A stretch of DNA of 64,000 nucleotides from contig NZ_VHLG01000008.1 of the NCBI RefSeq assembly GCF_006516955.1, positions 62,001-126,000 of the forward strand. The letters are read 5' to 3'. The position numbers and the translations under genes were made by a program. This document shows, in pieces, positions 2,099 to 64,000 of this stretch. The DNA is from Martelella alba. GTDB lineage: Bacteria; Pseudomonadota; Alphaproteobacteria; Rhizobiales; Rhizobiaceae. Position 1 is the first letter of the stretch, and each line of letters starts with the position of its first letter. A model generated the notes under the pieces. It searched no databases, was not told where the DNA came from, and worked only from the letters and a program-made list of their open reading frames with translations.

Positions 2099-2701
2099 AT
2101 GATGAAACTCTATTGCTCGCCCGCCTCACCCTATTCCGCCAAGGTTCGCATGGCCGCCCGCTATCTTGCACTGCCGATCGAGGAAGTGCATGTCGCCACG
2201 CCTGAGAACCCGGCTGAGCTGCTGGCGGTCAACCCGCTGGGCAAAATCCCGACACTCGTGAGCGAAGACGGCGAATCCTTTTTCGACAGCCGCGTCATCA
2301 TGCACTACATGGACAGCCTCAGCGAAGACGCACACATCTATCCGCACAGCGCCGAAAAGCGTGCCCGTGTCGAACGCATGGAAGCGCTTTGTGACGGCAT
2401 TACCGATGCAGCCCTGCTGGTGGTTTATGAGACCCGGTTCCGCTCGCCGGAAACCTGGCACGGTCCATGGGTCGAACGTCAGTGGGAAAAGGTCCGCCGC
2501 GGCCTCGATGTGCTGGAAGCCGATCCGCCGAAGATCGGCAACAAGCTCAATGCCGGTCATTTTGCCCTTGCAAGCCTGCTTGCCTATCTGATGATCCGCT
2601 TCCCCGGCCAGTGGGAGGAAGCGCGCGTACGGCTGACGGAATGGCCCGCAGCTTTCCAGGAACGCTTTCCCGCCTTTGCCGACACCCGCCCGAAGGTTTA
2701 G
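2099..2701 (+). CDS. Glutathione S-transferase family protein
   Basis: This is a 200-residue cytosolic GST. The N-terminal thioredoxin-like domain begins MKLYCSPASPYSAKVR, with a Ser/Cys glutathione-activating region at residues 6-13; the glutathione-binding loop NPLGKIPTLV is at 45-54, followed by SRVIMHYMD in place of the usual ES-x-x-I. The C-terminal part is all-helical. Two ATG codons occur in tandem (2099 and 2102), with GAGGA about 9 bases upstream. It follows rlmJ by a single base, suggesting one transcript. The substrate is unknown; detoxification or stress protection is a family-level inference. Confidence 0.88.
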   Translation: MMKLYCSPASPYSAKVRMAARYLALPIEEVHVATPENPAELLAVNPLGKIPTLVSEDGESFFDSRVIMHYMDSLSEDAHIYPHSAEKRARVERMEALCDGITDAALLVVYETRFRSPETWHGPWVERQWEKVRRGLDVLEADPPKIGNKLNAGHFALASLLAYLMIRFPGQWEEARVRLTEWPAAFQERFPAFADTRPKV

Positions 2702-2768: not shown

Positions 2769-2792
2769 AGCCCGCCGGTTTCCCGACGGGCT
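2769..2792 (-). repeat. Duplicated terminator hairpin, distal copy
   Basis: A 24-base hairpin with AGCCCG...CGGGCT arms (one mismatch) that repeats the hairpin at 3000-3023 with a single base difference. Read on the minus strand it is followed by TTTCTGCTGTTT, so this copy retains the T-run of what looks like the original terminator of the outer-membrane protein gene. Confidence 0.7.
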
Positions 2793-2999
2793 CAGATTGC
2801 TGACAAACCTTGCTCCTTTTTCTGACGTCATGCCTGTGCTTGTCACAGGCATCCAGCCGACGCGCGTCCGCGCGGCGAAAGGACTGATCTATTCAATGCC
2901 TTATGAATCTGGATCCCCGTGACAAGCACGGGGATGACGACAGAGGGAGGGGCTGTGCCACATCAAACATGCAATATGAATGGCTTTGTCAACAGTCTA
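2793..2999. mobile_element. MITE-like palindromic element, copy 1
   Basis: This 207-bp non-coding element is almost identical to the element at 37266-37472 and related, in reverse, to 62547-62743. The ends form an imperfect terminal inverted repeat: CAGATTGCTGACAAACC on the left, and the complement of GGCTTTGTCAACAGTCT on the right. Inside are two perfect 9-bp-stem hairpins, ATGCCTGTG/CACAGGCAT near 2830 and ATCCCCGTG/CACGGGGAT near 2923, resembling the intergenic palindromic repeats common in rhizobia (RIME-type). It is flanked on both sides by copies of the same terminator hairpin. No transposase is encoded, so any movement would need one in trans. Confidence 0.75.
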
Positions 3000-3023
3000 A
3001 GCCCGCCGGTTTCCCGGCGGGCT
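3000..3023 (-). terminator. Terminator hairpin of omp gene, proximal copy
   Basis: A perfect AGCCCGCCGG/CCGGCGGGCT stem with a 4-base loop, 36 bases past the stop of the minus-strand outer-membrane protein gene. On the minus strand the following bases are TAGACTGTTGAC from the inserted element, so it has no T-run; the T-run is on the distal copy at 2769. It is palindromic and could also stop plus-strand transcripts coming from the GST gene. Confidence 0.7.
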
Positions 3024-3058: not shown

Positions 3059-3706
3059 TCAGAAGTGGAAGGCAAGACCGGCCTTGATAGTGTTTTCCTC
3101 AAAGCCCTTCTTGTAGCTGCCAGAGCTCAGATTATAGGTCTGATCGCCGTAATCCGTGTAACGATATTCAAGACGTGCCGACAGGTTGTCGGTGATCATC
3201 GCTTCAGCACCGGCACCAACCGTGTAGCCCCATGCACCTTCGCTCTTGCTCGAGCTGTAGTCGACAGCCTTGGTGTCCGTTGCGGCGACACCGGCAGTGC
3301 CGTAAATCAGAACCGGGTCGAGCGAATAGCCGACACGCCCGCGCATCGAGCCGTTCCAGCCCTGTTCGAAATGGGCGGCCCCGATGGTCTGCTCCTGGCT
3401 CGAATTCGAAAGATCGCCTTCAACGCCGTAGACAACCGAACCGTCCTGAAGGTTGTAACCGCCGAACAGCGTTCCGCCAAAGCCAGAGGCGTTGAAATCA
3501 CCACCATTGAAAGTGCCCCAGTCATAATTGAGGGCGCCACCGACATAAGCACCACCCCAGTTATTGGTCTTGGGGGCGCTGTAGGTCATTGCCGGGGCCG
3601 GCTCATAGGACTGGGTGTTTACGACTGCATCTGCAGCCGATGCAACGCCGGCGCCCATCGCGGTGGAAGCGGCAGCGGCGAGAAGAGTCTTTGTCCAGAT
3701 CCGCAT
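3059..3706 (-). CDS. Outer membrane beta-barrel protein, Omp25/31-like
   Basis: A 215-residue porin-like 8-stranded barrel of the Omp25/Omp31/RopB type that is common in Rhizobiales surface layers. Residues 1-24 are a signal peptide ending in ASA before ADAVVN. The mature protein has the family opening NNWGGAYVGG, alternating amphipathic strands, the motif RLEYRYTDYG near 180, and ends in Phe (GLAFHF), the usual signal for the BAM machinery. AAGGAG lies 7 bases before the ATG. It is monocistronic and divergent from the SDR-uvrC operon across an AT-rich region with paired palindromes. Confidence 0.92.
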   Translation of the reverse strand: MRIWTKTLLAAAASTAMGAGVASAADAVVNTQSYEPAPAMTYSAPKTNNWGGAYVGGALNYDWGTFNGGDFNASGFGGTLFGGYNLQDGSVVYGVEGDLSNSSQEQTIGAAHFEQGWNGSMRGRVGYSLDPVLIYGTAGVAATDTKAVDYSSSKSEGAWGYTVGAGAEAMITDNLSARLEYRYTDYGDQTYNLSSGSYKKGFEENTIKAGLAFHF

Positions 3707-37242: not shown

Positions 37243-37265
37243 AGGGCCACCTTCCGGGGTGGCCC
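37243..37265 (+). repeat. Duplicated terminator hairpin, proximal copy
   Basis: AGGGCCACC-TTCCG-GGTGGCCC, identical over 23 bases to 37473-37495. It lies 24 bases after the CpdB-type stop but lacks a T-run because element DNA begins directly after it. Confidence 0.75.
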
Positions 37266-37472
37266 GCAGATTGCTGACAAACCCTATCCCCTCTCTAGCG
37301 TCATGCCTGTGCTCGTCACAGGCATCCAGCCGACGCGCGTCCGCGCGGCGAAAGGACTGGTCTATTCAATGCCTTATGAATCTGGATCCCCGTGACAAGC
37401 ACGGGGATGACGACGGAGAGAGGGGTTACCCCACCTCAAACATGCAATATGAATGGCTTTGTCAACGGTCTG
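37266..37472. mobile_element. MITE-like palindromic element, copy 2
   Basis: A 207-bp copy of the element at 2793-2999, in the same orientation and nearly identical except for a short variable stretch near 37290 and near 37425. It has the same GCAGATTGCTGACAAACC left end, inverted-repeat right end, and two inner hairpins. It separates two copies of the CpdB-type gene's terminator. From 37500 to 37789 I see no further gene or structure. Confidence 0.75.
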
Positions 37473-37499
37473 AGGGCCACCTTCCGGGGTGGCCCTTTC
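37473..37499 (+). terminator. Terminator of CpdB-type gene, distal copy
   Basis: AGGGCCACC/GGTGGCCCT stem with TTTCC after it; this is the complete version of the terminator whose hairpin is duplicated at 37243. It now lies 254 bases past the stop codon. Confidence 0.75.
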
Positions 37500-56086: not shown

Positions 56087-59000
56087 ATGGCTAAACAACT
56101 CGGCGAAACCTCGCTTGACGAGAAGGCAATCAGTGCATTGGAAGATGCCCTGGAGTTTGACCTGACCGATGGCGACGAACCGCAGCAAAAACAAGCCGAC
56201 GCCACGGCCGGGCATGAGGAAAACGCGACAGGTGAAGACAGTCGCCAGGCGCAGGACGCCCCCGCGCGTCCCCCCAAGAACGAAGCCCCGCAACGCGCGA
56301 CCTCGCATCGTCCCAAGTCTCCGGAATTCAAGCCCGCCAACGATCCGGGACGTTTTTCGACTCACAACATTCTTCGGGCTTTTGACAGCCGCTCGATCTT
56401 TCCGGTTCTGAAGAATGTTTCCATCGCTGCGGTGATCTGGCTGATTGTCGGCCTCGGCACAACAATGCTGATCTTCGGGTCAGAAATTTCCGCAGCACCG
56501 TCCCTGCGTGCCATCTTCGCCATCAACGGCATGGGCATCGCGCTCGTCCTCACCTTCATTCCGGTCTTCCTGCTCTTTGCCTCGACCATCATGATGGCGC
56601 GCGCCCGCGACATGCATGAGGCAGCCCGTTCGATGGCAGAAGTGGCTCTGCGTCTGGCAGAACCCGATGAAACCGGCGTTCAGCAGGTGCGCAGCGTCGG
56701 CCAGGCCGTGCGCCGTGAAGTCTATGCCATGAATGAAGGCATCGAACGCACAATCGCGCGGGCGACCGAGCTGGAAAACCTTGTTCATTCGGAAGTCAAC
56801 GCACTGGAGCGCTCCTATGCGGATAATGAGATCCGCGTTCGCAATCTGGTGCAGGAACTGTCGGCCGAGCGTGAGGCGGTCATCAACCACGCTGCTCGCC
56901 TGCGCACATCGATCCTCGGCACCAACGACCAGCTGCGCAAGGATGTCTCCTCTGCCATGGACGAGCTGACCCGCACGGTCAGCACGGCCGGCGGTGGCGT
57001 TGCCGAAATGCTTGAAACGCGCGCCGCCCTGATCGAAGAACGTTCAAGCACCGCTGCGCAGAAGATCGAGGAAAGCCTCGACCAGCGCTCCGCATCGCTT
57101 CAGGAAAGTTTCGAGCGTGCCCATGCGTCGCTGTCTGACCTGTTCGAAAACCGCTTCGAATCGATCACATCGCAGATGACGGATAGCAGCCGCGCGCTGA
57201 TCGGAGAATTTGAGACCAAGGCCGCCTCCTTCAGCCAGGATGCAGAGCGGCTGAATGCAAGCCTTGCCGAGCGCAACCGCGAACTCGACGATATTCTGAC
57301 CAATCGTGCCCGTGCGCTTCTCGATGCCGCAGAGACCGGCGAAAAGTCGATGAGCGAGGCGCTCGACCGCATCATGGGCGGCCTTTCGGCCACGATCAGC
57401 CAGACCCAGGCGAGCTTCAACCAGCAGCTCGGCGAAGCCGGTGCCGAAATCGATCGCCAGATCGAGGAGCGCGGCAATTTCGTCGACCAGCGCCTCGAAG
57501 CCTCGATCACCCGATTCTCGGCCAATCTTGGCGATCGCCTGACAAGCTTCACCGACGGTTTCGATGAGCAGAGCAGCGCGCTTGAGAACAGGCTGGACAA
57601 CAATCTCGGCCGGCTCAACCAGGCCATTGTGGAAGGCCGCTCCTCACTCGATTCGCTTCTGTCGAGTGCGCGTGACGATTTTGAGCAGCGCTTTGCCGAC
57701 CAAACCATGGCACTCGCCGCCACGCTTGGCACAAGCGAGGACGCCATCGCCCAGACACTTGATTCCGGTGCCAGCCGCATCGACCAGTCGCTTGACCAGG
57801 GACATCGCCAGATCGCCGCATCGCTCGACACCGCATCGAGCAAGCTCGAAAACACCCTTTTCGAACGCTCCGATAGTTTCAACAAGAATGTCGAAGCCGT
57901 CGAAAACCGTATCGCCGCAACATTCGAGGAAGGCGGCAAATCACTGCGCGACGCCTATGAAGGTCAGCAGACCCGCCTGGAGGCCAGCCTGCGTGATGGC
58001 GCTGAGCGCATGGAACAGAGCCTCGACGGCCGCATCGAGCAGATCGACAAGAGCTTCGATGGCCGGGTTCGCGATCTCGACACCGCCCTTGGCGACCGCC
58101 TGATCGAGCTTGATTTCACCCTCGACACCAAGACCGACCGTATCGAACAGACGCTGGATGACCGCCTGACCAAGCTCGACAGCCATCTCGACGAGCGTAT
58201 CGAGCACATCGGCCAAGGCTTTGACGGCCGCATCGAGAAGCTTGACAGCCGCATTGGCGAATTCGACAGAAGCTTCGACAGCCGCATTGAAAAGCTGGAC
58301 GGCAACCTCGACAGCCGCATTGACCAGATCGGTCAGAATATAGACGGCCGTATCGGCCAGATCGACAGCCGAATTGGCGAGTTCGACAAAAGTCTCGACA
58401 GCCGCATTGAAAAGCTGGATGGCAATCTCGATAGCCGTATCGGCCAGATCGGTCAAAATATAGACGGCCGTATCGGCCAGATCGACAGTCGCATTGGCGA
58501 GTTCGACAAAAGTCTCGACAGCCGCATTGAAAAGCTGGACGGCAACCTCGATAGCCGCATCGAAAAGCTCGACAGCAATCTCGATAGTCGCATCAACCAG
58601 ATCGGCCAGAGTTTTGACGGTCGCATTGATCAGCTCGACAGCCGCATCGGTGAGTTCGACAAAAGCTTCGACAACCGCATCAACCAGATCGGTGACAGCT
58701 TCGATGGGCGCATGCAGCAGCTTGACAGCACGCTTGGCAACCGCATCGGCCAGATCGGTGATAGCATGGACGGGCGTATCCGTCAGCTTGACGGCAGTCT
58801 GGATGAGCGGCTCGGTCGCTTCGACCAGAATCTCGATCAGCGTCTGAGCCACCTCGACACGCAAATTTCCACCGCTGACAGCCGGATCGACGCGACAATG
58901 GCGCGCGGCAGCAAGGCCATAGAGACGGCGCTCACCCAGCAGGTCTCTCAGCTGGAAAACACACTGGCTGAAGAAACAACCAATATAAGCGCCACGCTTG

Positions 59001-62518: not shown

Positions 62519-62546
62519 GAGGCGCCCCGGGCGCCTTTTTTATTGC
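62519..62546 (+). terminator. Terminator of GPR-like gene, proximal copy
   Basis: GGCGCC-CCG-GGCGCC stem followed by TTTTTTATTGC, 28 bases past the stop at 62491. All 28 bases, save one in the loop, recur at 62744-62771. Confidence 0.85.
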
Positions 62547-62743
62547 TGACAAAGTCCTTCAATTTGTCTGTTTGAGCGAAGAACCACCCCTCAGTCGTCA
62601 TCCCCGTGCTCCTCACGGGGACCCAGGCTCTTCAGGGCATTGGATTAAAATACTCTTTCACCGTGCAGACGTACGGCGGCTGGATGCCTGCGGACCAAGC
62701 ACAGGCATGACGTCAGCGAAGGGGGAAGCTTGTCAGCAGTCAG
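62547..62743. mobile_element. MITE-like palindromic element, copy 3, reversed and diverged
   Basis: About 197 bp related to the elements at 2793 and 37266 but in the opposite orientation: a CGTCATCCCCGTG hairpin is on the left and GGATGCCTG...CAGGCATGACG on the right. Its ends are TGACAAAG and, inverted, CTGACTGCTGACAAG. The middle has diverged. Flanked by copies of the GPR-like gene's terminator. Confidence 0.65.
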
Positions 62744-62771
62744 GAGGCGCCCCTGGCGCCTTTTTTATTGC
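62744..62771 (+). terminator. Terminator of GPR-like gene, distal copy
   Basis: GGCGCC-CCT-GGCGCC stem followed by TTTTTTATTGC, with 27 of 28 bases the same as 62519-62546. Here both copies keep the T-run. Confidence 0.8.
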
Positions 62772-62904: not shown

Positions 62905-63540
62905 CTAAAGAATCGAGACCGCCCAGGCCACGATCTCAGCGGTTGCCTGGGCCGAGGCCTGATCCAGCGCACTCACAAGCACACCATTGCTGGCCGTCGG
63001 ATTGACGCCGACCTTGGTATCAAAGACCTTCTGCGCCTTGACGACACCACTGCGATCATCGACCAGCTTGACCGCGAATGAAACATTGGCGGCACCGCCA
63101 CCGGCAGCATCGATCGAGAAATCACGAATTTCCACGACAAGCTGATAATCGATCGCCAGTCCCTGCCCCGGCATGCCGACACCGCCAAATGCTCCCGTCC
63201 GCTCAAGTCCAGCGACAAGATTGGCCTGGACGAGATTTGGCAGATTATCGCCCCATTGCGCCTTGGAAAGGTAGCGGATCTCCGAGCCGGGGAGCCGCAC
63301 CACGATATCCTGGCCGGCCAATGCCTGCATTGCGCCGGGCGTTGGCACCAGAATCTGAAGCTTCTTTCTGGCGGCCGTCGTGGCACTCACCGCTGCAATT
63401 TCGGACGTTGCCGAAAGCGCAAAAGTGTCATTGGTAGGACGAACGGCGCAGCCTGAAACAAGAACAGCACCAAGCATTACCGCAAGCGCGGGCCGAGCCA
63501 TTCGATACAGTCCTTGCCTTGTCGCCTTCACGTTTCTCAT
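62905..63540 (-). CDS. ABC-type transport auxiliary lipoprotein (Mla/MCE-associated)
   Basis: A 211-residue lipoprotein. A signal peptide ends with the lipobox LVSGC (Cys about residue 31), so it is lipid-anchored. The mature part (IAAVSATTAARKKLQILVPTPGAMQAL, DIVVRLPGSEIRYLSKAQWGDNLP in pieces, LVVEIRDFSIDA) is the DUF330-like auxiliary lipoprotein that accompanies MlaD/MCE systems in alphaproteobacteria. ATG at 63540 has GGTGGG upstream; ATG at 63501 is an alternative. It follows the mlaD-like gene by 122 bases. Confidence 0.82.
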   Translation of the reverse strand: MRNVKATRQGLYRMARPALAVMLGAVLVSGCAVRPTNDTFALSATSEIAAVSATTAARKKLQILVPTPGAMQALAGQDIVVRLPGSEIRYLSKAQWGDNLPNLVQANLVAGLERTGAFGGVGMPGQGLAIDYQLVVEIRDFSIDAAGGGAANVSFAVKLVDDRSGVVKAQKVFDTKVGVNPTASNGVLVSALDQASAQATAEIVAWAVSIL

Positions 63541-63662
63541 CAGTCCCACCGATCCGCTTTCCGGTTGCCCTTCCAGCTTTGCACTCAATCGAAAATTATA
63601 AAACATTTCAAGTTCGTGGCGCGCGATTGCGACACTATTCGTGATCCCCGGCCCGTCATCCG

Positions 63663-64000
63663 TCAATAGCGGCTGCGCCCGTCATAGGGTTTAACCGTCT
63701 GGCCACCGAAGATAAGCTGCTGCGGATCACGCGCTATCCCGGAAACCGTCCGGTCAAGCGTCGTAATGGTCGTGCGCAACTGCTCGATAAGCGCGTTGAC
63801 ATTCCGAAGCCCTGAGCCGGAGAAACTGTCGAGATTGTCAGCAATCGGTCCGATGCGGCTATTCAGCGTCTCTGCCACCTGCCGGACCGATTCCAGGGTC
63901 TCACGCGCCTCGACGGAGAGCGACTTGGTATCGTCGGAACCGAGCAGCGTATCAACCTTGGTCAGGATCGTATCGACCCGCGTCGAGGCATCATTCAGCT
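63663..64000 (-). CDS. MlaD/MCE family protein, C-terminal part
   Basis: The minus strand is open from the window edge to the stop at 63663, giving 111 residues: LNDASTRVDTILTKVDTLLG, then a helical region (EARETLESVRQVAETLNSRI, VNALIEQLRTTITTLDRTV) and the ending QQLIFGGQTVKPYDGRSRY. The helical heptad-like tail and its lipoprotein neighbour fit the end of an MlaD-type substrate-binding protein of a phospholipid ABC transporter. The MCE domain itself would be outside the window. Confidence 0.72.
   Translation of the reverse strand, partial: LNDASTRVDTILTKVDTLLGSDDTKSLSVEARETLESVRQVAETLNSRIGPIADNLDSFSGSGLRNVNALIEQLRTTITTLDRTVSGIARDPQQLIFGGQTVKPYDGRSRY

Follow-up and report, generated by a model that had tools for sequence, protein, structure and literature searches.

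What process places a palindromic repeat between two nearly identical stem-loops whose sequence changes from one locus to the next? The question is raised by the 64,000-nucleotide stretch of Martelella alba DNA analysed here (the window), in which one repeat occurs in three copies, each flanked by two stem-loops peculiar to its own locus. At all three sites, the hairpins are alike within the locus and unlike those of the other loci, as an earlier note on this DNA had described. Copy 1 (positions 2792 to 3000, plus strand) is 209 bp long, rather than the 207 bp given in that note. It has imperfect terminal inverted repeats (TCAGATTGCTGACAAA / TTTGTCAACAGTCTAA) and folds strongly, with z scores against shuffled sequence of -7.4 as DNA and -9.1 as RNA (both on positions 2793 to 3001). 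The stem-loop on its left (2770 to 2791) is proximal to a glutathione S-transferase-like gene (2099 to 2701, plus strand) that ends at this copy, and has an A-tract outside and no T-run; the stem-loop on its right (3001 to 3022) is followed by a T-run. An outer-membrane beta-barrel gene (3059 to 3706, minus strand) converges on the copy. The two hairpins, each of 22 bp, show the single difference that had been reported for them.

Copy 2 (37266 to 37473, plus strand, 208 bp) is found behind a 5'-nucleotidase-like gene and between two identical 22-mers (37244 to 37265 and 37474 to 37495). Copy 3 (62538 to 62744, minus strand, 207 bp), whose core is reversed relative to copies 1 and 2, has hairpins of 18 bp at 62520 to 62537 and 62745 to 62762, again with one difference between them; beyond it lies an ABC-transport auxiliary lipoprotein gene on the other strand (62905 to 63666). 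The view that the proximal hairpin has lost its T-run holds for copies 1 and 2 but fails for copy 3, where the left hairpin keeps its T-run (TTTTTT) and the right one is also followed by one.

An Rfam scan of the window element gave matches only below the gathering scores of the families. One of these, at 2804 to 2957 on both strands, was to the Wolbachia RNA WsnRNA46 and perhaps reflects just two large palindromes. Elsewhere in the window, positions 58004 to 58833 contain internal direct repeats, at spacings of, e.g., 33 and 120 bases, within an open frame of 2145 codons.

Most collected copies in the host genome lie between duplicated hairpins

We ran the end pattern CAGAYTGYTGACAAA, allowing up to two mismatches, over the 4.99-Mb host genome and used the reversed pattern as a control. 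This yielded 231 matches (119 + 112), compared with 12 (8 + 4) for the control, from which we estimate that the host contains ∼110 copies of the element. We collected 91 paired copies out of these, each counted singly even when related by descent; two pairs of 225 bp (L007:1982 and L058:963) are probably false and were kept in all denominators of 91. These two aside, the copies are 198 to 221 bp long, which is too short to hold a transposase.

The left and right flanks of a copy reached a local alignment score of at least 12 in 69 of the 91 copies, compared with 1 of 452 flank pairs exchanged between loci, showing that the match is far above chance; the other 22 copies fell under the threshold. 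Under a stricter test, for a gap-free duplication flush with the element, 53 of the 91 copies remained. In the usual layout, the repeat abuts the element end, with an A-tract outside on the left and a T-run outside on the right. One side or both had a flush hairpin in 83 of the 91 copies, and both sides had one in 62, while control positions 80 to 170 bp farther out reached the same hairpin score in 83 of 728 cases. Eight copies have no flush hairpin on either side, two of them being the probable false pairs. Stop-to-stop frames of at least 120 codons end within ∼155 nt of the element on both sides in 52 of the 91 copies and on one side in another 34, these being counts without a control set.

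Some loci depart from this layout. At L004 (1499 to 1942), a tandem pair of copies has a hairpin between its members, giving three hairpins, of which the outer two resemble each other more than they do the middle one. At L016, L024, and L045, the hairpin pair matches better with one hairpin inverted, as if flipped. By eye, L080 (2016 to 2213) and L133 (about 1480 to 1730) have flanking repeats of 15 bp and ∼13 bp, respectively, that do not form hairpins, suggesting that hairpins are preferred and not obligatory.

Empty sites in relatives carry a single hairpin

We searched for eight hand-picked gene 3' ends beside element copies across 13 genomes of the genus, the host among them, and read their states by eye; of the three window copies, the set covers the loci of copies 1 and 2. 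In the sister genome (G011), the element is absent and a single hairpin is present at six of the eight loci (L281, L284, L285, L286, L287, and L288), and the insertion is shared at the remaining two (L255 and L268). At the site of copy 1 (L286), the lone hairpin has the sequence of the right-hand hairpin of the window copy, whereas the hairpins of L284 (window copy 2) and L287 have diverged in sequence from their counterparts in the host. Among the matches listed for more distant members of the genus, the states are mixed and include related elements (L262, L269, L270, and L277) as well as single hairpins. In G012, the orthologous terminator of copy 1 carries a different element with a 22-bp hairpin duplication of its own (L302); the terminator at window positions 2770 to 3022 has been struck independently by another element in that genome.

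The sister genome also has elements of its own. Ends could be paired at 9 of the 10 loci examined, and the repeated hairpin scored at least 11 in all nine. At 15 loci examined in other genomes, a duplication scoring at least 12 was found in eight, none or only a weak one in five, and no end pair in two. Short elements that have other cores but the same type of ends also occupy duplicated hairpins, as seen for those of 98, 142, and 144 bp among the eight.

The earlier note had proposed that the element targets rho-independent terminators and duplicates the whole hairpin, and had suggested checking whether most copies have matching hairpin flanks and whether empty sites in relatives carry one hairpin. 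The first check came out in favour of this proposal (69 of the 91 copies, or 53 by the stricter flush test), and so did the second, both supporting the duplication of the whole hairpin as a target site; targeting of terminators is supported by the target consensus, AAAA|G(G/C)CC...GGCC|TTTT, which resembles an intrinsic terminator. Each gene may keep a terminator in this way, the safe-harbour benefit that the note had proposed; at copy 3, both hairpins retain a T-run. Being short, present in many copies, and devoid of a transposase gene, with terminal inverted repeats, a target duplication, and empty sites, the element is a miniature inverted-repeat transposable element (MITE).

An IS1182-family insertion sequence has the same ends and the same target

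A search for the ends over 151 genomes of the family yielded two full insertion sequences (L153 and L154), which have the same ends as the MITE and each lie within duplicated hairpins. The gene of L154 encodes an IS1182-family transposase (NCBIfam model transpos_IS1182, NF033551, 475.9 bits with a cut-off of 270) that contains the domains PF13751, PF05598, and PF01609. A protein scan of the named genomes with this transposase detected relatives in 124 stretches, and we went on with the best 80 of the 124, which are spread over Rhizobium, Agrobacterium, Mesorhizobium, Brucella oryzae, Consotaella, and others. L173, from Consotaella salsifontis, and L154 are one and the same locus. In 48 of the best 80, both ends could be read along with 20 nt or more of flank, and the remaining 32 are mostly cut by contig ends; three loci (L215, L216, and L247) are full length, yet no end pair was found in them. 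Under an end-pairing rule that admitted only 1420 to 1750 bp, the insertion sequence measures 1498 to 1554 bp in 47 of the 48 copies; the exception, L218, has 1687 bp. With its IS1182-type DDE transposase, its length of about 1.5 kb, and its terminal inverted repeats, it belongs to the IS1182 family.

Each of the 48 readable copies is bounded on either side by the MITE end pattern, its two ends together showing 0 to 3 mismatches. The consensus of 96 ends of the insertion sequence and that of 182 MITE ends are the same 16 nt, TCAGACTGCTGACAAA, an equality that arises partly by construction, because the ends were picked with that pattern. The sequence common to the two kinds of element amounts to only about 16 bp. 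A flush duplication of 16 to 26 bp is present in 39 of these 48 copies (from the best 80 of 124 relatives), compared with 2 of 231 exchanged pairs. All 48, including the nine copies that have no duplication at the threshold, have a flush hairpin on one side or both. In two of the nine (L234 and L245), the left and right hairpins are similar but diverged. Six others (L176, L178, L179, L213, L222, and L249) have clear but different hairpins on the left and right, and are possibly products of recombination between copies of the insertion sequence.

In eight copies that we inspected, the terminal repeat is followed closely on its inner side by a G+C hairpin, which makes the ends of the insertion sequence resemble its target. 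The left end of L174, L175 (from Rhizobium johnstonii 3841), and L177 has a hairpin of its own that starts within the terminal repeat (ACAAACCCC...GGGGTTTGT) and is likewise target-like.

At an E value of 1e-20 or better, the host and sister genomes gave no IS1182 relative. Among 13 genomes of the genus, the only relative is in G005 (L253), a distant one of 33% identity that has other ends and no hairpin duplication.

The duplicated length seems to follow the hairpin

Most DDE transposases generate target duplications of near-constant length, which is taken as a property of the enzyme. The duplications studied here are usually flush, 16 to 28 bp long, and centred on the palindrome. Over 39 duplications of the insertion sequence and 53 of the MITE, the edges have the consensus AAAA|G(G/C)CC ... 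GGCC|TTTT, and the G+C fraction inside versus outside the duplication is 0.93 versus 0.20 for the insertion sequence and 0.89 versus 0.27 for the MITE. When the best hairpin was sought within 12 nt of the duplication, the centre of the palindrome lay no more than 1 nt from that of the duplication in 38 of 39 and 52 of 53 cases, respectively. A step from G+C to A/T coincides exactly with both edges in 20 of 39 duplications of the insertion sequence and 21 of 53 of the MITE, i.e., in only about half of the former and fewer of the latter. The same step was found in at most 4 and 6 cases at any shift of 1 to 5 nt, and a constant median length placed on the same centres would recover it at both edges for just 6 of 39 and 5 of 53. 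Both joins thus tend to fall at the feet of the G+C stem, and the length follows.

We also compared the full length of the palindrome with that of the duplication. The correlation is weak (r of 0.33 for the insertion sequence and 0.52 for the MITE, with A/T extensions counted), because pairing between the A-tract and the T-tract stretches the palindrome past the copied stem, and this comparison was replaced by the test of edge composition. What is copied is the G+C stem and not the full palindrome. It is the hairpin, rather than a fixed ruler, that seems to set the duplicated length, and the variation of this length with the hairpin points to structure-guided cutting of the target.

Proposed mechanism and alternative explanations

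Our main reading, to which we give a probability of about 0.83, is that we are dealing with a MITE, a non-autonomous relative of this IS1182-family clade, and that its insertion copies the whole hairpin, with the stagger set by the hairpin. It builds on what is seen directly in the genomes, namely, the target, the flush duplication of the whole hairpin, the empty sites, the ends that match those of the insertion sequence, and the same behaviour of the insertion sequence itself. The transposase would recognize an extruded or single-stranded hairpin, the stagger of the cut would thereby be set by this hairpin (16 to 28 bp), and gap repair would copy the whole stem-loop to both sides of the element. 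An IS1182-family transposase presumably mobilized the MITE in trans, although neither the host nor the sister genome gave a relative of it at the E value used; the source insertion sequence has probably been lost from this lineage. We lean, with some reserve, toward a more general statement, in which the IS1182 clade would measure its target by DNA structure, joining the element to the two 5' feet of an extruded terminator hairpin, so that the duplication equals the stem-loop, whatever its length. Inside a single family, the choice between 5' and 3' feet would then decide between duplication and the deletion seen with IS1272, and unrelated short elements would exploit the duplicating version to colonize gene ends.

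A conventional DDE transposase might instead read the double-stranded sequence of a terminator-like site (A-tract, G+C block, and T-tract) and cut it with a loose stagger of ∼16 to 28 bp, without reading any structure. Although such an enzyme could make use of the strong base consensus at the edges (A then G, C then T), we consider this account unlikely, given that the duplications remain centred on the palindrome to within 1 nt while their length varies from 16 to 28 bp, and that a fixed length recovers the step at both edges far less often (6 and 5 cases) than it is observed (20 and 21). Furthermore, IS1272, a member of the same family, is described in the available text of two papers as inserting at hairpins that have little sequence, if any, in common (PMC4923244 and PMC5678879). 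The flanking hairpins might also have arisen after insertion, by gene conversion or local duplication, or might belong to the element. This would be very surprising for hairpins that are specific to their locus and match only within it; the six empty sites with one hairpin contradict it, and the same pattern recurs at 39 insertions of the insertion sequence. The three loci with one apparently inverted hairpin (L016, L024, and L045) are the observation in its favour, since they need an extra step.

We give hardly any weight to the notion that the MITE was moved by another transposase, e.g., that of IS481 or IS110 elements found near the same ends. A 1444-bp block with MITE ends at L102 does contain an IS481 gene, and an IS110-like gene, recognized by translation, stands beside a MITE end at L130. 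However, the IS481-family element (L102, 1617 to 3060; host C44:198916 to 200359) splits the core of a MITE copy and has its own ends and a 5-bp repeat (ACGAG), so it looks nested and was ruled out as the autonomous partner. The same decision was taken for the IS110-like gene at L130 (1500 to 1848), which, like its relative at L144 (about 1470 to 2700), lies within a palindromic intergenic repeat at GTCATC and looks nested. The occurrence of these genes at GTCATC in two genomes suggests that this IS110 group targets such repeats. Further candidates that we thought of were group IIC introns, Cas1-type integration, and IS1202, which makes long duplications; among the matches listed for the IS1202 literature, none dealt with terminator duplication.

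Implications

The duplications provide natural evidence for a pathway that has been drawn only as a possibility for IS1272, and structure-guided transposition becomes directly testable with defined hairpins. They also suggest how a palindromic repeat could reach ∼110 sites, most of them behind or at the ends of genes, within a single genome. Duplicated terminator hairpins can serve as a search rule for such elements elsewhere, and the system is a possible tool for the insertion of DNA behind genes.

Comparison with known systems

The transposase of the clade described here matches the model of the IS1182 family at large (NF033551), but the clade differs from other IS1182 members in its hairpin-sized duplication, which the distant L253 of the same genus does not have. 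The direct repeats given in ISfinder for the IS1182 family vary widely, so that isolated instances of hairpin duplication may be recorded there. Repeats similar to the MITE core with its paired hairpins occur on 89 plasmid records of Rhizobium, Sinorhizobium, Agrobacterium, and Neorhizobium, none of which covers 80% of the query. These rhizobial palindromic repeats may be of the RIME type; a search of the literature on RIME found no paper. In the four plasmid copies with related cores that we read by eye (L111 to L114), unlike in the MITE, neither terminal repeats nor hairpin duplications stand out.

The element resembles bacterial MITEs, as the available text of PMC10969869 describes them, in its size of ∼200 bp, terminal inverted repeats, target duplication, high copy number, intergenic location, and strong folding, and differs from such MITEs in general by its preference for terminator hairpins and the duplication of the complete hairpin. 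In the accessible parts of two further papers, the direct repeats given for IS1182-family members are short or absent, with 4 bp for ISPse1 (PMC3281130) and apparently 4 and 0 bp for ISMac2-type MITEs (PMC3852290).

Hairpin targeting by IS1182-family elements is already known, which the earlier note had overlooked together with the IS1182-family partner. According to the available text of PMC5678879 and PMC4923244, IS1272 and TnSha1 of Staphylococcus (IS1182 family) insert into inverted repeats, among them transcription terminators, whose primary sequences are barely conserved or not at all. Furi et al. (PMC4923244) describe there the targeting of hairpins and terminators with deletion. In the corresponding text of Wan et al. 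(PMC5678879), the stem-loop is removed or replaced by IS1272 without target duplication, duplication of the whole stem-loop is drawn solely as a hypothetical route, pathway b, with attack at the 5' feet, and Siguier et al. are cited as having reported palindrome targeting by some IS1182 members, with no detailed data. Among the matches listed in searches of the openly available literature, none described regular duplication of the whole stem-loop in a widespread clade and in MITEs that share its ends. The present insertion sequences share with IS1272 and TnSha1, as far as that text describes them, an IS1182-family transposase, and both they and the MITE share with them terminal repeats of 16 bp, and a hairpin or terminator as the target (48 of 48 copies of the insertion sequence and 83 of 91 of the MITE). 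Unlike in IS1272, where the hairpin is removed or replaced and no duplication is made, the whole stem-loop is retained and duplicated here (39 of 48 copies of the insertion sequence), so that the present case looks like the hypothetical pathway b of IS1272 occurring in nature.
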